From contig JAQTXZ010000003.1 of assembly GCA_028688515.1 (NCBI GenBank), forward strand, positions 1-64,000: 64,000 bases of DNA, in the 5' to 3' direction. The stretch comes from Patescibacteria group bacterium. GTDB lineage: Bacteria > Patescibacteriota > Patescibacteriia > 2-12-FULL-60-25. This document shows, in pieces, positions 40,203-58,750 of the stretch; position 1 is the first letter of the stretch, and each line of letters starts with the position of its first letter. The position numbers were made by a program, and so were the translations under genes. The notes under the pieces are model-generated. The model worked only from the letters and a program-made list of their open reading frames with translations, did no database searches and was not told the origin of the DNA.

Positions 40203-40322
40203 AGCCTAACTCACCCCCAGCCCCTCTCTTTAGCAAAGAGAGGGGTGCCGTATCATCCTCGTGTCGGTGAGTTGTTCAGAGCCCTCTCTTTTGGCAAAGA
40301 GAGGGACGGGGTGAGTTATGCT
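40203..40322. repeat. Family E element, copy 2 (120 bp, inverted)
   Basis: Read on the minus strand it aligns end to end with copy 1: agcataactcacc, two ctctctt hairpins, core cgacacgaggatgatacgg, gtgagttaggct. Its right end supplies part of the stop codon of the alpha-2-macroglobulin gene. Confidence 0.85.
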
Positions 40323-43300
40323 ATTTCACCTCTACAACCGCCGGCGTGGAAACCGTCGCGAGCGACGGAGTTTGCATGGATTGCAGCAATGCACCCGATG
40401 CTGTGTAAGTTCCGAGTGAAACTATGCGCGCGATATAATTTATCGTCACAGGCTTATCATGCTTGCAAACGACAAATGACACCTCATTACCCTGTACATC
40501 AAACGGGAAATAGACAGGCATGCTGCCGTAACGATTGTAGTTGATGTTGACCACGGGCATAAAACCGGCTGGCAATCTGTCGCGCAGCACGTAACATCCG
40601 TCTTGCGCTTTTTGATCCCATGTCGCATTCAAATTTACCGTAACCAAATCTCCTTCGTGATACGTCTGCACCACCGCGCCATCTACTTTATAATCGCGGC
40701 TTAAGTTGAGCAGACTGGACGCGGCGCCAACATCACCCGCGACGCGTTTGACGTAAGACACGGATGCCGGACCGTCCACGCTGACTGCACGGAAAGCCCT
40801 AACCTCATCTGCAGTCAATGTCTCATAATGCACCGGCTCGCTGTCGCTTAGCTCGATTGATTTTTGATCCTGGCCGATGGCATAACTTATTTTAACATTA
40901 CCCGAAACCATTGACGGCACGACTTTTTGCAAATACATGGCGCGATCCAAATCCGTTAAAGCCTCGTTGTTCCAATTTGATTCCACGTAGGCCATTAATT
41001 TATCAGCCGAAGAATGCGCCATCGATGCAGCTAAAGCTGCCGCTTCCGCAGTCGCTTCGATTGTTTCACTTTGAGATTGGCTGACGTTTAATGTCATCGA
41101 ACCATCATGTTCTTCTGATTTTGAGATCAAGCCGTCCAACAGTGTTCGCGCAGCTTCACGTTCTCCGATTGCGTCCAAACCGCGAGCCAAAGCCAACGTT
41201 TCGCGCCACGAAAGATCCGTGAGTTCCGCAACTTGATGCAAACGTGAAATCACCGGCTGACCAAGCGCAGCCAAACCGGCCAAAGCCTGAATGGATTCTT
41301 CACGCGAAGCTTTCGCGTTGTCCGTTACGCTCCAAAAATAATTTGCAAGCGCAGCTTGGTCGACTCCCTGTGGTGCGACTGCGGCGACCTTGGAACTCAG
41401 TGCCACGTCTTCGGACGAGTAAGGCAAAACTCCCAAACCTCCTCTTAGCAGTTGGTAACTCGTCAAACTTATATCATTCGGATCCAATTCGTTTGATTGA
41501 TAATAATCGCGCAACAATTCTCTTGACACGCGTCCGGCGACAGCGGATTCCAATCTTGCGGACCATGGATTTGCCAAAGCATCCAATTCAGATCTGGCGG
41601 CGGAACGCGTTTTGGATTCAAAAACAAGTTGGACTTCCGTAGCTTCACCAATGTCAGAGAGCTCCGTTCCCGGCGCAAGCTCAATGGAAACGCGCTCGTC
41701 ATGCGTAGCACCGGATGCAGCAACGTTTATCATGCGCTCAATCGCGTCTTTAGCCTGACCGTTTACCGATATGCCGATCGTCGCCTTGTGCGAACCGACA
41801 ATCGGGTTGTCCAAAGCAAGATAAACGGCTTGATTTACTTGGCCTTTAACCTCTTGTTTATTTATTCCCAAAGTCGGCGCGTCAACCGTGTACGATACCT
41901 CGCCCGTCTTGGGCAAAGCCGTTCCAAAAGCGCGCAATTTTAACACCGGCTTATCAGCAGCCAAAATATTTTGCGGAATTACAGCTTCTACAAATAACGG
42001 CTTGCTTGCGCTGATATTCAACTTGGCCGCACCGGCGCGCAAATCCTGCGTCATCGCAACCGCAGTAAAGCGCCACGAAGTAATATTGTCCGGCAAAGTA
42101 AACGAACCGGTCGCAATTCCATCGCCGTTGGTTAAGAGCACCATAAATGACGCTTGATCTTTAAAGTTTTTGCGCACTGCGCTGCTGCGCTCACCGCCGC
42201 CCATCTCCGCGCCGCCGCCCGCAAAACCGCTAGCCTGATCAGCCAAGTGAGTTGCGCCTGTTGCGACTATGCCGTCCGGCAATAATTGATAAAGCGTGTT
42301 CAAGGGCATTTCTTCGGCTCCAAGCTGCGCGATAGCAAGCAGCGCCTCGTCAGCAACCGAGATTGCGATATGCGCATCTTTTATTACATTTCCATTTTTG
42401 TCCGTAACTTTTGCACGGAAATTTACATTTTCACCCGGAGCGTAGATTACCTTATCCGGCTCGATAACAACGTTCAACTCGCGGCTTTGCGAATCGAACA
42501 TAATGTTGTATTGCGACATAGCAAAACTGTTTTTGGAGAATACAACTCCATAAACAGTCATGTTGGGCACATCCTCTTCGGTAAAATCAAACTCGTGCGT
42601 AGCGTTAAGTGAAACTTGCGAGCTGCGAATTCCACGCGCGGCATGGACATACAAAAAGCTCACATTTTCACCGCTCATTTTCTGTCCGGATTGAGTAAAA
42701 CTCAACGAAACTTTATCGCCCAAATCAAATGAGTTGCGATTATCGACAGCATCAGTCAATACCAAAGTCGGCGCATCGTTGCCCGAACGGTCATACCAAC
42801 CTTTTGATGCGTAAGACGTTACAGACTGCGTTGCGCCGCCATTATCGGTCCATACAACAACGCGATAAGAAATATTGTCTTTAAGCTGATAATTGAAAGT
42901 CGCATAACCGTTAGTATCCGTCACCGCATCAAAATTCCCGGCTTCTACATCGCGCTGCACATATCTGTATTGCGGTACTACTTTCTTTTCCAGAGGATCA
43001 AAATACGTTCCCGTCTGAGTCTTATCCCAATGTTGCTCTATAAATTTAGCTTTTACGCTTACGCCGGCCAAGCCTTCGGTTAGAACCGAATCATTTGTGC
43101 GGCCGTTAGCCTTGCTAGGATCAACTGTGCGCACTCTATAACGCAAAGTTGCGTTTCCGTTATCTTCTTTAATCGAATCTTCATTAAGCGAAGAATGGCT
43201 GCGCCAAACGTTATAACTCGCATAAGCATAAATTTCTCCTTCTTCGCCGACCGTCGGCCTGGCCTCTATGCTCAAATTGGTTTGCGCATAACAATTTTGA

Positions 43301-45621
43301 TAACGTTCTCCCAAATCACACTTGGGCGTGCCGAGGTTAAAGGCATAGTTTGCATAACCGGCATCATCCGTCGTAACCGTCAGCGGTTGATTGTTGGAAT
43401 CGAAACCGCCTGATGCGTTCAAAGAAATCTTAGCCTTTGCAACCGGCGTGCCGTCAAAAAATTTGGCGATCAACTGGCCCTTCGCTTGTTCGCCCGCAAA
43501 AACATTCACCTGTTCAGGTACAACCTGCAAATAATAAGCCGGTTTAACCGTGTCTCTGATTTCGATTGAACGCGAAGTCACGCGTTGGCCGTCTTTAAAC
43601 AGAACCAATTCATAATATCCGGGCGTAAGCGTACCGCTCCACGAAATCTGACCGCTAAAAAAGCCCGCACCGTCTTCGTTAAAATTTACTTTGGCATAAA
43701 CCTTGCTGTCGTAAGTTCCATAATCAATGAAACTGCGATTCATCAACCTTACCTCCGCAGTGCCGGTGCCTCGATTGGAAGCTCTGTCTTGCAACAGGCC
43801 AAAGACGTTTATAGTGTCTTGCGAGCGATACAGTGGCCTGTCGCTATAAAGATAAGACCATGTATCGAACGATGCGCCGTTGCCTCCGTAAGAAGAACCA
43901 AAATACATGAATTCCCAATCCTTACGCAAAACGCTAAGCAATCGCATAGAACCCTCGCCCAGTTCCAAAACAACAGCCGGTGCGTTCCTCGTGGTATTCG
44001 CATTACCAGCCGACCACGATTCCGGAGTCTTAAGGCGCGACGTGCCCTGTGAATCTGTTTTTACGGTCTGCCCCTCCATGGATACGGATGTCTCGACCGG
44101 TTTGCCGGTTTCCGTGTTAACGGTCCAAACCAAAATCTGATCCTTGTCGGCCATCGAATATGCCGCCAGATTTGAAACTTGCAACAAAACCCAAGTGGGC
44201 TGCACGCCTTCTTGATCCAAACGAATGGCGTAAAAACCTGCCGAAATAGAATTCGACAATCTTATTCCTTTGCTATATTCGCCCACATTTTCCAAATTCG
44301 CCTGCTGTACGAATACCTGACCGCCGGCTTTGCCTGCTAATGTTTTATTGCGGATGTCAGTCGCATCAATCCATGAAGGCTGACTTTCAATTTGTTGAAT
44401 TGCCGCTTTGGCGTCATCGAATGACAGTGAATAACCCGTTACTGTAACCGGCTTATCAACATCGCTGTACCAGACGCCGATAACCGGCTCCGTACCGGGC
44501 GCAGATTCGAACAAGTAAGATGTGACATTGATGTATTTTTGCGCAGAACTGACTTGTCCGGAGCTGGTTTGAAAACGCATCGAGTAATCATCCTGCAAAG
44601 TCGATCCTCCATCACCCAAGCCCCAACCTTTTTTTACGGTAACAGTATACAAAGTCAAAGGCGACAAAGGCTTATTTGGCAAAAAGACCAACGTGCGGCC
44701 GTGCGTTTCGAATCGACCATCGACCTGCGGTTCGACGGCAAAATACTGCGCCGGATCCTGCCAACCGACCTGGGACAAAGTAAGTTCGATTGCAGTATCA
44801 AGCGGCACGCCTGTGGATGCATCGCCGGGTACGGCACGGATAATTTTAAAAACATTCTTTGTCTGCACCGCCCACGAAAAATCGCGCTGGCGTAAATCTC
44901 CCGTTTCATCCTGCACTGCAGTTGCAATCACTACGCGGTAAACACTGCCTGTTTCCAACTCATTTTGAGGTTTAACGTTAAATTGATTGTCGCCCGTTTT
45001 GTTAAAATCAAAAGGCACGCTTTCATTGCCCTGATCTGAAACTTTAATCACGCGCAAACTCTGCTTAAGCCTATCTTGATCAATATTAACTTTAGAATTT
45101 ATTTGAAAAGAAGTATCAAGCTCCGCGGTGCCGTCATTTTGTTTTTCAACCAGCATACTGAATGCATCACCAGCGTTGGCAGCGGGAATAACCAACGAAA
45201 GTTTTGACAAACCATTCTGCGATTGAGTTTTGAATAATTGTTTAAAAGGAATAGTCCCCGTCTGTGCAGCAAAGACGAGCAGCACGACAGCCGCAACAGC
45301 AACCGCTCCACCGACCCAGAGGAACCATGGACGACGGACGTGAGCCGAATGTCGAATGTCCGCTTCGCTGAATGTCCGCTTCGCTGAATCTCGAGTATCG
45401 GGGTTCGGGGTAAGGGATTCGAGTTTTTTTGCAGCCTCAAGCAGATGTTCTTTTTGTGCAGCCATAACTTTCGGATCCATTCCGTCCTGTTTCCACGCGG
45501 CATGTTGCTTAAGAGCTTTTGCCATGCGCAAATAAGGCTTGTCCTCGGGCATCGCCTTGCTTTCATTGCCTTCGAGCGCCTCGTCTATGCGTTGCGCGAT
45601 TTGTTCTTCGTTAAATGACAT
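40321..45621 (-). CDS. Membrane-anchored alpha-2-macroglobulin family protein with cytoplasmic N-terminal domain
   Basis: A 1766-residue protein. Residues 1-75 are a helical cytoplasmic domain (FNEEQIAQRIDEALEG, DKPYLRMAKALKQH) of the kind found in anti-sigma partners. A repeat-encoded stretch (about 75-95) and one membrane helix (about 99-119) follow. The rest is extracellular: Ig-like and MG domains (SVYRVVIATAV, DRPLYRSQDTINVFGLLQDR, YYLQVVPEQVNVFAGEQAKG), the bait-region neighbourhood and NITSWRFTAVAMT typical of bacterial alpha-2-macroglobulins, then a helical thioester-type domain. The thioester CxEQ is absent; the matching segment reads NPWSARLESAVAGR. The family traps or senses proteases at the envelope. 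The start is 1 bp after an ECF sigma gene. Confidence 0.88.
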   Translation of the reverse strand: MSFNEEQIAQRIDEALEGNESKAMPEDKPYLRMAKALKQHAAWKQDGMDPKVMAAQKEHLLEAAKKLESLTPNPDTRDSAKRTFSEADIRHSAHVRRPWFLWVGGAVAVAAVVLLVFAAQTGTIPFKQLFKTQSQNGLSKLSLVIPAANAGDAFSMLVEKQNDGTAELDTSFQINSKVNIDQDRLKQSLRVIKVSDQGNESVPFDFNKTGDNQFNVKPQNELETGSVYRVVIATAVQDETGDLRQRDFSWAVQTKNVFKIIRAVPGDASTGVPLDTAIELTLSQVGWQDPAQYFAVEPQVDGRFETHGRTLVFLPNKPLSPLTLYTVTVKKGWGLGDGGSTLQDDYSMRFQTSSGQVSSAQKYINVTSYLFESAPGTEPVIGVWYSDVDKPVTVTGYSLSFDDAKAAIQQIESQPSWIDATDIRNKTLAGKAGGQVFVQQANLENVGEYSKGIRLSNSISAGFYAIRLDQEGVQPTWVLLQVSNLAAYSMADKDQILVWTVNTETGKPVETSVSMEGQTVKTDSQGTSRLKTPESWSAGNANTTRNAPAVVLELGEGSMRLLSVLRKDWEFMYFGSSYGGNGASFDTWSYLYSDRPLYRSQDTINVFGLLQDRASNRGTGTAEVRLMNRSFIDYGTYDSKVYAKVNFNEDGAGFFSGQISWSGTLTPGYYELVLFKDGQRVTSRSIEIRDTVKPAYYLQVVPEQVNVFAGEQAKGQLIAKFFDGTPVAKAKISLNASGGFDSNNQPLTVTTDDAGYANYAFNLGTPKCDLGERYQNCYAQTNLSIEARPTVGEEGEIYAYASYNVWRSHSSLNEDSIKEDNGNATLRYRVRTVDPSKANGRTNDSVLTEGLAGVSVKAKFIEQHWDKTQTGTYFDPLEKKVVPQYRYVQRDVEAGNFDAVTDTNGYATFNYQLKDNISYRVVVWTDNGGATQSVTSYASKGWYDRSGNDAPTLVLTDAVDNRNSFDLGDKVSLSFTQSGQKMSGENVSFLYVHAARGIRSSQVSLNATHEFDFTEEDVPNMTVYGVVFSKNSFAMSQYNIMFDSQSRELNVVIEPDKVIYAPGENVNFRAKVTDKNGNVIKDAHIAISVADEALLAIAQLGAEEMPLNTLYQLLPDGIVATGATHLADQASGFAGGGAEMGGGERSSAVRKNFKDQASFMVLLTNGDGIATGSFTLPDNITSWRFTAVAMTQDLRAGAAKLNISASKPLFVEAVIPQNILAADKPVLKLRAFGTALPKTGEVSYTVDAPTLGINKQEVKGQVNQAVYLALDNPIVGSHKATIGISVNGQAKDAIERMINVAASGATHDERVSIELAPGTELSDIGEATEVQLVFESKTRSAARSELDALANPWSARLESAVAGRVSRELLRDYYQSNELDPNDISLTSYQLLRGGLGVLPYSSEDVALSSKVAAVAPQGVDQAALANYFWSVTDNAKASREESIQALAGLAALGQPVISRLHQVAELTDLSWRETLALARGLDAIGEREAARTLLDGLISKSEEHDGSMTLNVSQSQSETIEATAEAAALAASMAHSSADKLMAYVESNWNNEALTDLDRAMYLQKVVPSMVSGNVKISYAIGQDQKSIELSDSEPVHYETLTADEVRAFRAVSVDGPASVSYVKRVAGDVGAASSLLNLSRDYKVDGAVVQTYHEGDLVTVNLNATWDQKAQDGCYVLRDRLPAGFMPVVNINYNRYGSMPVYFPFDVQGNEVSFVVCKHDKPVTINYIARIVSLGTYTASGALLQSMQTPSLATVSTPAVVEVK
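45354..45385 (-). repeat. Double 16-bp tandem repeat inside the alpha-2-macroglobulin gene
   Basis: Two copies of gaatgtccgcttcgct, the same 16-bp length and word pattern as the triple repeat in epmA (GAAT-n-T-n-CGCT-n-CGCT). Confidence 0.8.
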
Positions 45622-45622
45622 A

Positions 45623-46192
45623 CTATTTTGTAGCTTGAGTTAAAATCTTGCGCAGTCTGCCCAAAGATCGATAAATCAGAACTGCCGCGTGATTATTGGA
45701 GATGCCCAACTGCGATGCAATTTCTTCCGTGGCATATTCGCCGTAAAATTTTAAAGTCAGCACTTCTTGATCGCGGCGCGAAAGTTTATCAATGGCCGCC
45801 CGCAACCTGTCGCCTTCAAGAGACATTTCCGCCGACCAAGCCGGATCATCAAGCGAAGGAGGATCCCATCCCTCATCTTCATCATCTAAAGAAGTTTGTT
45901 TGCGCACCGCGCTGCTGCGCCAGTGATCAGCCAGAGCGTTTGACGCGACTCTGTACAGCCATGCGCCGATCGGCACGCCCTGCCATTCCAAATTCGGCGC
46001 CGATTGCAGGAGCTTCATAAATGACTGCGCCACCAAATCTTCGGCCGTTTCTTTATGCCCGCAGCGTTTGAGTAAATACCCATACAGCTGCCCTGCATGA
46101 CGGTCGTAAACCAGGCCGATGGCCTGCGGGTCGCTTTTTATCTGCATAAACAGCGCTTTTTCTTGTTCCAAATCAATTTTTTGTTCCGCCAT
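45623..46192 (-). CDS. ECF-type RNA polymerase sigma factor
   Basis: Sigma-70 family, group 4 size (189 aa). Region 2 spans about residues 25-90 (VYDRHAGQLYGYLLKRCG, AEDLVAQSFMKLL, GAWLYRVASNALADHWR). Region 4 spans about 130-182 (LSRRDQEVLTLKFYGEYATEEIASQLGISNNHAAVLIYRSLGRLR), with the helix-turn-helix intact. The downstream gene starts 1 bp after the stop and encodes a membrane protein with an intracellular helical N terminus, the standard sigma/anti-sigma layout. It probably directs transcription of envelope-stress genes when released. Confidence 0.9.
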   Translation of the reverse strand: MAEQKIDLEQEKALFMQIKSDPQAIGLVYDRHAGQLYGYLLKRCGHKETAEDLVAQSFMKLLQSAPNLEWQGVPIGAWLYRVASNALADHWRSSAVRKQTSLDDEDEGWDPPSLDDPAWSAEMSLEGDRLRAAIDKLSRRDQEVLTLKFYGEYATEEIASQLGISNNHAAVLIYRSLGRLRKILTQATK

Positions 46193-46273
46193 ATTAAAAC
46201 GTAGCTAATAGCCTTTAAGTGACATTAGTATAGCTTGAAACAAATTTGTGAACAATGCAACAACAAAAGACTA

Positions 46274-46353
46274 GCAACTTACAACTGACAACTAACAAGA
46301 GCGATTTAGCAACTAAGCAACTCTTGTTAGTTGTAAGTTGTCAGTTGTAAGTT
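46274..46353. repeat. Family B palindromic repeat, copy 2
   Basis: gcaacttacaactgacaact, aacaagag and their complements ctcttgttagttgtaagttg, a long near-perfect hairpin between dedA-like and sigma genes. Confidence 0.8.
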
Positions 46354-53106: not shown

Positions 53107-53844
53107 TTATCGATTGAATAAAGGCATTACAGGAGGATGTAAACGCACGCCGCGAGGGCATGGCCTGATAATCTCAACTTCACCCGTTCTGTTGGTACTG
53201 CTAACGTCGCCCACAATGCGGACGCAAGCGCCGGGCTGCATAGGTCTTGGCATTTGAAGCACGTCCTGCGAATTAATACTGAACGTCCAAAAAACACCTT
53301 CCGGATCGCTCAACTCCAAAGTGGAAGTTCCAAAAGATTCTATGCGGCCGACGATCGTGCCCATGCCGGGGTTCATCATTTTTAAAATTCGCGGTCTGGC
53401 CATCAACGAATATTCGGGAACGAATCTGGAGGCCATTTCTTCCACGCGGTTGGCGATGCCGGAGGAAGCAGCCGCTACTCCCAAAGATGCAATGGCAAAA
53501 AAACAAATTACCAAAACCGCAGCGACTCTAAATCTGTAACCGCGCGGAGATTTTGTAAAAATCCAAACAGCCAGCAGAGCGCACGTAAAACTCACGATAG
53601 CCCACAACAAAGGCAGTGCATCCAAAAATCTATCAAGGGACATTGATCTGCCTGCATCAATCGTCAAATTTACGGGGTCTAAAATAAACCAAACAAACAC
53701 GCCTGCGGAAACCGCGGCAAACATTGCGACCAACGTAAACGCTGTCCAAAGCGCGGCGTGTTTTAAGATGACCACCCAGCGCGGAATGGGCGTGGCAAGT
53801 TCTCCGGTTTGAATTTTTTTCTCAAATTGATCTGCTATGCTCAT
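53107..53844 (-). CDS. Membrane protein paired with sigma factor (probable anti-sigma)
   Basis: The 245-residue protein has a short cytoplasmic N terminus (about 25 residues), three membrane helices (about 27-55, 76-96 and 104-128) and an extracytoplasmic C-terminal domain. This domain has a small beta-barrel appearance (GTIVGRIESFGTSTLELSD, QPGACVRIVGDVSS). No zinc-binding anti-sigma motif is seen. Position 3 bp after an ECF sigma gene is the reason for the anti-sigma proposal. The beta domain may sense an envelope signal. Confidence 0.65.
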   Translation of the reverse strand: MSIADQFEKKIQTGELATPIPRWVVILKHAALWTAFTLVAMFAAVSAGVFVWFILDPVNLTIDAGRSMSLDRFLDALPLLWAIVSFTCALLAVWIFTKSPRGYRFRVAAVLVICFFAIASLGVAAASSGIANRVEEMASRFVPEYSLMARPRILKMMNPGMGTIVGRIESFGTSTLELSDPEGVFWTFSINSQDVLQMPRPMQPGACVRIVGDVSSTNRTGEVEIIRPCPRGVRLHPPVMPLFNR

Positions 53845-53847
53845 ATT

Positions 53848-54447
53848 TTATCTGATTAAGTTGGGATACTCGTCTCCCAATTTTGCGAACTTTTGCCTGG
53901 CGCGTCTGATCCATGTGCCTACAGTGCCGATGGGAGCCTGCAAAATGTCGCTCATTTCCTCGTATGATTTTTCTTCGATGTAGGCCAAGACTAACACCTC
54001 CTTATCGCGAGGAGGCAGTTTATCCAATATTTGTTTTATGACTTTTGAGTTTAAGGAACTTTCGACCAGACTTTGACTTTCTTCCTTAGCTGAAAGCAAC
54101 CTCTCAAATCCCATGTCCTCATCGTCGATCGAAACATTATTCAAAGATGACTTGTGCTTGCGATAAGCCGAAATGGTCCGGTTATGTACTATACGATAAA
54201 TCCAGCTGGAAAACTTCAAATGCGGATCAAAACCGGCAATATGGCGATAAGCATCGACAAAAGCATCCTGCAAAATATCTTCCGCATCCTCTTTTTGAAA
54301 ACCGCTGATGCGCCTTATATAAGCCAAAAGTTTGGATTCATAACGCCTCACCAAAGGCACAAAAGCCCTGTGGTCCGTAGGCACTATGGACGCCAGTTCC
54401 TCATCTGTGTTTTTTTGGTAATCAACCAATGGCATGGGAACAATCAT
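53848..54447 (-). CDS. ECF-type RNA polymerase sigma factor (second copy)
   Basis: Sigma-70 group 4 protein of about 199 aa. Region 2 is FVPLVRRYESKLLAYIRRI, EDAEDILQDAFVDAYRHI and FSSWIYRIVHNRTISAYRKH. Region 4 is LPPRDKEVLVLAYIEEKSYEEMSDILQAPIGTVGTWIRRARQKF with helix-turn-helix. The start is uncertain between nearby Met codons (54447 or 54435) and there is no Shine-Dalgarno. It forms a unit with the following membrane gene, in the same way as the sigma gene at 45.6 kb, but its partner is unrelated. Confidence 0.9.
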   Translation of the reverse strand: MIVPMPLVDYQKNTDEELASIVPTDHRAFVPLVRRYESKLLAYIRRISGFQKEDAEDILQDAFVDAYRHIAGFDPHLKFSSWIYRIVHNRTISAYRKHKSSLNNVSIDDEDMGFERLLSAKEESQSLVESSLNSKVIKQILDKLPPRDKEVLVLAYIEEKSYEEMSDILQAPIGTVGTWIRRARQKFAKLGDEYPNLIR

Positions 54448-54490
54448 ACAATTAACAAGGAACAATGTACAATTAAAAAATTTTAGTTAA

Positions 54491-57397: not shown

Positions 57398-58705
57398 CTA
57401 GTTTTCAGTTTCCAGTTTCATCATGTCTTTCAGTGAGGCGTAAGGCACGGTCACAACCTGCGGACCTGCTGCGTACGGCGCGACTTGATATTCAGGGAAG
57501 ATGATGACAAGGCCATCTTGATTCAAATAGTAATATTGATAATTTTTCAAATCCGGTGCGGCGCCTGATTTTAAGCCCTCAACATCCATATCCGGCTTCT
57601 TGGAAAGTTCAGCGATTGCATAATCTGAAACGATTTTTAGGTAATCGCTGTCGGATTTGAAGATGTCATCAAACGTCAAACGTTTACCTGTCGAAGTGTC
57701 AAAAACAAAAGTCTCAACAATCGAAATCCCATGTGCACCGCCCGTGTATTCGTAGCCGTTAAAAACGATACTGACGACATTCGAACTGACGTTATAAATC
57801 GAATAATTATTCTGTAACACAAAAGGTCCGGGCGACGCTTTACCTTCCGTCTTAAGCAATCTAGCAAAAGTCTGCGTCGTTGTGCTGATGTAAGTATTGA
57901 TCGCGCCGTTGATCACATCTCTCACCGCAGCATCTCCGCCAAACATGACGGGATATTTTACGTCCACCGAATGATCTTTGGCATCTTCTTTTATCGACTT
58001 TGTCTCAAATCGCAAATTCAAATTCTCTTTGCTCTTACTAGGTGTAAAAGTATTTAGCGTCGACATTATCATTTTGCTCACCAACGAATCGCGGCTTTCA
58101 TCAAACGCCAGGCAAGCACCAGGTTTATCGAAGTTTTGACAATTGACCGAGTGAATCGTAAAAGCAAAAACCAAGCTCTTTTTGCCGAGCGGAATAGTAT
58201 ACCAATATTGATTGTAACGATTCCCTGCAGCCGCGCCCGCGCCTTCGACAACACAGACCTGTTGTCCGTTGTAAATCACACCGGGAGTAGCTTGTGCCGA
58301 TCCGTCTCGCTCATCATAACAACCATCTTTCAACTCTGCTCCCACTTGCAAATCGGTGCCGTCGTTGGTGATAATTTTTACGTCAAGTGCATCGTTCGGC
58401 ACGGAAAGCGCAGTTGAGCTTGCGACGGTAGGACCCAAGTCCAAAAACAAAACAGTGCCTGTCGCCGCATCGCTTCTAAAAGTCTCGACTGCATTCGCAG
58501 GATATTTGAAATCAAAACCGTAATTGTAGTTTCTGTATTGCAGCCAGCTTCCCGTCCCGGGTGCAGACTGATTCTGATCCACTGTCGTCGCATTCTGCTC
58601 GGTCGACGTGGGACGTGGGATGAGCGACGTAGGACTGCTTGAAAAGCATCCCGCTCCGAACAAAGCGAGGCTTATAGCTATAGCGTAGGCGTAGGCGTAT
58701 TTCAT
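57398..58705 (-). CDS. Lipoprotein with DUF3298/DUF4163-like C-terminal domain
   Basis: A lipoprotein signal (lipobox FGAGC, about residues 15-19) precedes a repeat-like Thr/Ser/Pro linker. A first domain follows (about 50-215; YNYGFDFKYPANAVETF), of the kind seen in PsbP-like CPR lipoproteins. The C-terminal domain (about 235-435) contains the RsiV-type pattern NGYEYTGGAHGISIVETFVFD, LTFDDIFKSDSDYL and YYYLNQDGLVIIFPEYQVAPYAAGPQ. That pattern is diagnostic of DUF3298 modules, which in Bacillus RsiV bind lysozyme. It could bind wall fragments or muramidase here (inference). Confidence 0.85.
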   Translation of the reverse strand: MKYAYAYAIAISLALFGAGCFSSSPTSLIPRPTSTEQNATTVDQNQSAPGTGSWLQYRNYNYGFDFKYPANAVETFRSDAATGTVLFLDLGPTVASSTALSVPNDALDVKIITNDGTDLQVGAELKDGCYDERDGSAQATPGVIYNGQQVCVVEGAGAAAGNRYNQYWYTIPLGKKSLVFAFTIHSVNCQNFDKPGACLAFDESRDSLVSKMIMSTLNTFTPSKSKENLNLRFETKSIKEDAKDHSVDVKYPVMFGGDAAVRDVINGAINTYISTTTQTFARLLKTEGKASPGPFVLQNNYSIYNVSSNVVSIVFNGYEYTGGAHGISIVETFVFDTSTGKRLTFDDIFKSDSDYLKIVSDYAIAELSKKPDMDVEGLKSGAAPDLKNYQYYYLNQDGLVIIFPEYQVAPYAAGPQVVTVPYASLKDMMKLETEN

Positions 58706-58750
58706 AGTTATTAGTCGTTTCTTAATGAATTTGTTCATTGTTAATTGTCA

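Follow-up and report, generated by a model that had tools for sequence, protein, structure and literature searches.

A surface macroglobulin as probable receptor and anti-sigma factor of an ECF sigma factor in Patescibacteria

The question raised by this locus is why the gene of a giant surface macroglobulin directly follows that of a sigma factor. The locus lies in a stretch of 64,000 nucleotides (the window; positions 1 to 64,000 of contig JAQTXZ010000003.1, assembly GCA_028688515.1) from a Patescibacteria group bacterium whose genome comprises 1.29 Mb in 4 contigs and whose named relatives are mostly Candidatus Uhrbacteria/Patescibacteria. A sequence-only reading had proposed that the alpha-2-macroglobulin (A2M) encoded behind an extracytoplasmic function (ECF) sigma factor is itself the anti-sigma factor and sensor. 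Judged from sequence comparison, the macroglobulin is probably a one-piece receptor and anti-sigma factor, and the sigma factor probably drives its own operon and a set of envelope and cell-wall genes. The pair is composed of the following elements:

45623..46192, minus strand: ECF sigma factor, 189 residues (Pfam; phmmer against the Protein Data Bank, PDB; NCBIfam)
40321..45621, minus strand: membrane-anchored macroglobulin (A2M), 1766 residues, proposed anti-sigma factor and sensor (Pfam; relatives)
45334..45621, minus strand: cytoplasmic N-terminal domain, residues 1-96, proposed anti-sigma domain (co-occurrence with sigma 94/94; AlphaFold2, AF2; alignment)
45265..45333, minus strand: single transmembrane helix, residues about 97-119 (hydropathy)

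The two genes meet at the sequence ...AAA TAG T ATG TCA..., which puts exactly 1 bp between the sigma stop codon and the A2M start; the open reading frames (ORFs) agree, so that the junction and the 1766-residue length were correctly read at the outset. Sought in related genomes, the same pair is present at 35 loci, with a gene spacing that ranges from overlap to at most 75 bp and is usually -32 to +18 bp, a recurrence that speaks against chance adjacency. With a membrane helix from about residue 97 on, the cytoplasmic part is about 96 residues long, not 75 as first assigned; its helical nature and the single membrane helix stand. The conserved helical core spans ~60 residues and follows the alignment pattern P-(hydrophobic)-..A..L...A.......V...QR..LL. 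Three helices, the third one long, are predicted by AF2 for the ortholog L002. The domain versions of the home family (f1) and of other families are homologous (hhalign E 5.6e-5, probability 66). The layout is that of a membrane anti-sigma factor, namely a gene next to that of an ECF sigma factor whose product has a cytoplasmic N-terminal domain and one membrane helix.

The distribution of this domain was assessed in A2M genes gathered from the genus, the family, the class and other phyla, which were scored for the length of the cytoplasmic N terminus and for a sigma gene directly upstream. A contig scan with the N-terminal domain alone had given no matches. Presence or absence of the domain matches that of the sigma gene in every A2M of a tree (94/94; 35 with, 59 without). 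The trait label switches 7-8 times on this tree, and the 7 independent gain/loss pairs are all concordant (sign test p=0.0156); a smaller tree of 54 A2Ms gives the same picture. Within the home family, every long-N-terminus A2M with upstream sequence has a sigma gene (mostly at -32 to +18 bp, once at 75 bp). No sigma gene accompanies the A2Ms whose membrane helix begins in the first ~50 residues. The A2M of L057, with an unrelated N terminus of 87 residues and no sigma gene, was scored as lacking the domain. Coupling is found in several patescibacterial families, in one Chloroflexi (L343) and in one Clostridia genome (L347), the remaining Clostridia A2Ms retrieved having neither domain nor sigma gene. 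One reservation is that start codons of coupled A2Ms were picked near the sigma stop, though untrimmed ORFs yield the same classes. An A2M with the same N terminus and no sigma gene nearby, the case that the sequence-only reading had named as evidence against itself, does not occur across the tree. The sigma gene beside a short-N-terminus A2M at L045 was rejected as an exception because that sigma factor is divergent, with a DUF5667 partner of its own.

The sigma factor displays Sigma70_r2 (8.5e-15) and Sigma70_r4_2 (1.3e-10) domains. With PF04542 and PF08281 above the Pfam cut-off in 189 residues, it has the composition of ECF sigma factors, ~190 residues with no sigma-70 regions other than 2 and 4. 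Its closest solved structure is sigma-BldN (6dxo_A; phmmer against PDB, 1.8e-18), crystallized with the membrane-anchored anti-sigma factor RsbN. It scores 111 bits against the BldN subfamily model TIGR02952 of NCBIfam, whose curated cut-off is 206 bits: it is a relative of BldN, yet is not classed as BldN, and its proximity to the BldN/RsbN pair is to be taken as a lead and not as a membership result.

The promoter motif that the sequence-only reading had suggested to look for was found upstream of the sigma gene, next to putative housekeeping elements:

46250..46255, minus strand: putative housekeeping -35 element (TTGTTC), 17 bp upstream of TATACT (sequence reading)
46227..46232, minus strand: putative housekeeping -10 element (TATACT; conserved in most f1 relatives)
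46219..46224, minus strand: putative ECF -35 element (TGTCAC; TGTCAT/C conserved upstream of the sigma gene in most f1 loci)
46198..46201, minus strand: putative ECF -10 element (CGTT), with a spacer of 17 bp here and 16-17 bp overall (sequence conservation)

In most home-family loci the sigma gene is preceded by TATACT and then by TGTCAT-N16/17-CGTT, whose distance to the start codon is usually 4-11 bp, and the site upstream of the sigma gene is the sole full match to the ECF motif within the window. The sigma-A2M operon is apparently autoregulated. Besides the sigma promoter, a scan for leaderless geometry returned little but sites that look like chance. In several relatives (upstream of L002-L005, L011 and L062; corresponding to 46198-46232) the ECF spacer holds a small hairpin of varying sequence, e.g., GGGGCTTAGGCCCC and GAGGCGGTCGCCTC, which could be an operator or a 5' leader structure.

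Four genomes with the pair have 3-7 full TGTCAT-N16/17-CGTT matches each, and in 4/4 of them one match lies upstream of the VanW ortholog (in the present genome at C4:907286). Further perfect VanW sites in G006, G061 and G010 bring the total to 7 genomes, and sites with one mismatch are found in G021, G033 and G059. No VanW site was found in G015, which has VanW and no sigma-A2M pair, or in the pair-bearing G022. The gene of a secreted beta-propeller protein (PF09826), absent from the present genome, has a site in 8/8 same-genus orthologs, perfect in 6 and with 1-2 mismatches in 2, against zero perfect sites in control long VanW genes. Motif sites also stand ahead of MurA in three genomes; in one genome each, they precede genes for a PdaC-like protein, a penicillin-binding protein and an L,D-transpeptidase. 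Among genomes with the pair, 32/92 motif sites (35%) lie upstream of genes against 6.6% at random (binomial p=5e-16), and 17/74 do so once the named targets are removed (p=3e-6). A few upstream sites are probably due to chance. In 13 family members without the pair the figure is 2/30 (7%), the random level, counted on the 30 of 59 control sites with loci returned (Fisher p=0.002 for 32/92 versus 2/30 and p=0.056 for 17/74 versus 2/30). Of the other targets, 14/17 are N-terminally hydrophobic (signal or membrane sequences) versus a 38% baseline (p=5e-4). The sigma factor's targets are likely cell-wall and secreted-protein genes, and the make-up of this regulon (cell-wall, secreted and membrane proteins) suggests that the signal is one of the envelope or of surface attack. 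The architecture, the obligatory pairing of domain and sigma gene, the promoter upstream of the latter and a motif found at promoters in pair-bearing genomes only are established at this level of sequence evidence. An ECF-type site is also seen 10-28 bp upstream of a gene coding a membrane protein of 80-92 residues with no family assigned (L138 at G000:C4:408334; L262 in G005). The PdaC/DUF3298 gene of the window (57398-58738, minus strand) has no full ECF-type site; a G003 protein with the same two domains (L258) has an ECF-type promoter.

The putative receptor part comprises the following domains and regions:

44566..44850, minus strand: Big_5 immunoglobulin-like domain, residues 258-352 (Pfam 8.8e-15)
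43561..43854, minus strand: MG2 domain, residues 590-687 (Pfam 1.7e-14)
42334..42741, minus strand: A2M bait-region domain (A2M_BRD), residues 961-1096 (Pfam 1.2e-8)
42157..42267, minus strand: disordered bait-position loop, residues 1119-1155 (AF2 predicted local distance difference test, pLDDT, <50; alignment)
40912..41613, minus strand: helical thioester-domain-like region, residues about 1337-1570, without CxEQ (AF2 secondary structure; motif scan)
40366..40668, minus strand: bMG10 domain, residues 1652-1752 (Pfam 2.3e-6)

The extracellular part, initially put at about 1640 residues with A2M domains, amounts to ~1645 residues whose A2M nature is agreed on by Pfam and Foldseek. Big_5, MG2, A2M_BRD, A2M and bMG10 all exceed the Pfam cut-offs. 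The AF2 model of residues 927-1766 (pLDDT 82, predicted template modelling score (pTM) 0.53) retrieves human CD109 (8s3o) and the A2Ms of E. coli (ECAM, 4ziq) and Salmonella at E 1e-35 to 1e-34, with a best TM-score of 0.53 to protease-activated E. coli A2M. The protein has the MG domains, bait-region domain and A2M domain of the alpha-2-macroglobulin family. Its bait-position loop (1119-1155) is short and contains a conserved GGAEMGGG that precedes R(K/R)NFKD in the alignment. The CxEQ thioester motif of Type I A2Ms was found by motif scan in none of the sigma-coupled A2Ms, which are therefore Type II-like, and in 5 uncoupled A2Ms of ~2000 residues. By its motif content the present A2M falls under the Type II definition (bait region without CxEQ), protease trapping being hypothetical; the disordered loop at the bait position and the absent thioester make a Type II, non-covalent response possible. 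These longer A2Ms, which have the CxEQ thioester but are not paired with a sigma gene, form a second type in a few Patescibacteria (L034, L068, L069; also L036, L037), so that the group has both Type I and Type II-like A2Ms.

From these features we infer how the pair could operate. The three-helix cytoplasmic domain would bind the co-translated ECF sigma factor and keep it at the membrane, while the A2M ectodomain would detect something extracellular. A change of the ectodomain would be triggered by bait cleavage, a ligand or strain, most simply by proteolysis or binding of an attacking protease or lytic enzyme. The anti-sigma stub would then be cleaved within the membrane and degraded, a route like that of RseA and RsgI, whose release proceeds by regulated intramembrane proteolysis (PMC8103513, PMC12203970). 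The freed sigma factor would read TGTCAT-N16/17-CGTT promoters and raise its own operon together with VanW, the beta-propeller protein, MurA and other secreted or membrane proteins. It is conceivable, and proposed here tentatively, that a foreign protease cleaves the bait region and thereby alters the ectodomain, that the cytoplasmic domain is then lost and the sigma factor freed, and that cell-wall repair and more receptor result.

The proposal that the A2M is itself the anti-sigma factor is strongly supported by the perfect co-occurrence of domain and sigma gene with its 7 independent changes and by the apparently autoregulated regulon. Several observations count against it. The N-terminal domain has no convincing profile or structure match to any Pfam family or PDB chain, known anti-sigma domains included: no anti-sigma PDB chain matched its profile at E<10, among them RsbN, the class III reference. 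An NCBIfam match to CU044_5270 (E 0.0038) was rejected as far below cut-off and covering the membrane helix. The AF2 model of sigma-domain contact, built as an in-frame read-through fusion of the L002 ortholog, reaches a pTM of 0.39, for which reason no docking is claimed. A few genomes have the sigma ATG straight after CGTT, a geometry that does not fit a transcript made from this promoter and using that start codon. The regulon candidates of the present genome are also few, being sigma-A2M, VanW and the 80-residue membrane protein.

These weak points leave room for other explanations. The absent match to known anti-sigma domains and the lack of a confident docking prediction would both be expected if the sigma factor and the A2M were merely co-expressed, the N-terminal domain being an anchoring or trafficking segment and the sigma factor having another regulator or none; this is very improbable, as loss of the sigma gene always goes with loss of the domain but not of the A2M or its membrane helix, anchoring alone needs no sigma factor, and L057 combines an unrelated N terminus with no sigma gene. 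The A2M could instead be an effector, in which case the domain would be an anti-sigma factor, another signal such as membrane or cell-wall stress would free the sigma factor, and the macroglobulin would be a protective output. The apparent autoregulation and the general envelope nature of the targets agree with this, as does the Type II A2M MagD, which traps protease without a thioester and sits at the inner membrane (PMC5764988). However, anti-sigma domain and ectodomain share one polypeptide in all coupled cases and the fusion was gained or lost repeatedly, which is most easily explained if the signal comes from the ectodomain, and the effector role is rather unlikely. Finally, TGTCAT-N16/17-CGTT might be read by another regulator, so that the proposed regulon would not belong to this sigma factor: the motif is assigned by position only, and at the sigma gene TATACT stands immediately upstream of it. 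Yet its promoter enrichment disappears in family members without the pair and its spacing and CGTT element are ECF-like, which makes a foreign regulator improbable.

Among known systems, RsbN/sigma-BldN of Streptomyces (PDB 6dxo) is the nearest to the present sigma factor in solved structures. RsbN is a membrane-anchored anti-sigma factor that acts on sigma4 and defines class III anti-sigma domains (PMC8103513); unlike it, the present domain has no detectable similarity to PDB anti-sigma chains and is joined to a macroglobulin ectodomain of 1600 residues. The RsgI anti-sigma factors of Clostridium thermocellum respond to substrates outside the cell, and their release involves RseP cleavage and ClpXP (PMC12203970). 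The system proposed here would be similar in outline, with proteolysis that we infer. The RsgI sensors differ from a macroglobulin, and the partner of RsgI is SigI, not an ECF sigma factor of the present kind. MagD of Pseudomonas aeruginosa shares the A2M fold, the bait region, the lack of CxEQ and the membrane association, and traps protease after bait cleavage despite having no thioester; it belongs to the six-gene mag operon, and the sections available describe no cytoplasmic domain or sigma partner for it (PMC5764988). Patescibacterial sigma/DUF5667 pairs are similar in that an ECF sigma gene overlaps that of a single-pass membrane protein with a short cytoplasmic N terminus, by 4 bp in the present genome (G000, C4:164993-166107, L031/L071). 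They differ in their ectodomain, DUF5667 and not A2M, and in N-terminal domains without a profile link, a kinship rejected at an hhalign probability of 0.4%. Note that DUF5667 proteins are found in 120/144 genomes of the class and that several directly follow a sigma gene. A literature search, with most subscription papers outside its scope, yielded no paper that couples a macroglobulin to an anti-sigma or sigma factor. This agrees with the initial remark that no system with such wiring is known, and leaves novelty provisional. On that footing, the macroglobulin as sensor domain of an anti-sigma factor would be new, the ECF/anti-sigma principle being known.

The surroundings of the pair contain further elements. 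A near-perfect inverted repeat (46276-46353; 23-nt arms, 96% complementary, 32-nt loop) sits between a VTT-domain gene and the sigma promoter. A long imperfect inverted repeat with CCCCTCTCTTT-type units, resembling a repetitive element, lies at 40203-40322 between the A2M gene and a Memo-like gene. A second sigma-70-like gene (53848-54465, minus strand; Sigma70_r2 4.6e-16, Sigma70_r4_2 4e-15) is directly followed by a gene coding a 245-residue protein (53107-53844) without a significant Pfam match and with only a weak OB-fold match.

Patescibacteria have small genomes, and a dependence on other cells is assumed for many of them. What bacterial macroglobulins do is still debated, and they are regarded mainly as periplasmic protease traps. 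Here a macroglobulin appears as the input of a transcriptional switch over cell-wall genes in small-genome Patescibacteria, and a surface A2M with a sigma-linked inner domain points to an undescribed sensor of surface attack in bacteria. A receptor, a sigma factor, a promoter sequence and a target list become testable in bacteria for which few regulatory circuits are known. The candidate targets of the sigma factor tie A2Ms to peptidoglycan upkeep, to which Type I A2Ms are linked through an operon with a peptidoglycan synthase (PMC5764988). If the tentative bait-cleavage proposal is true, an innate-immunity-like A2M would serve transmembrane signalling, beyond trapping alone.
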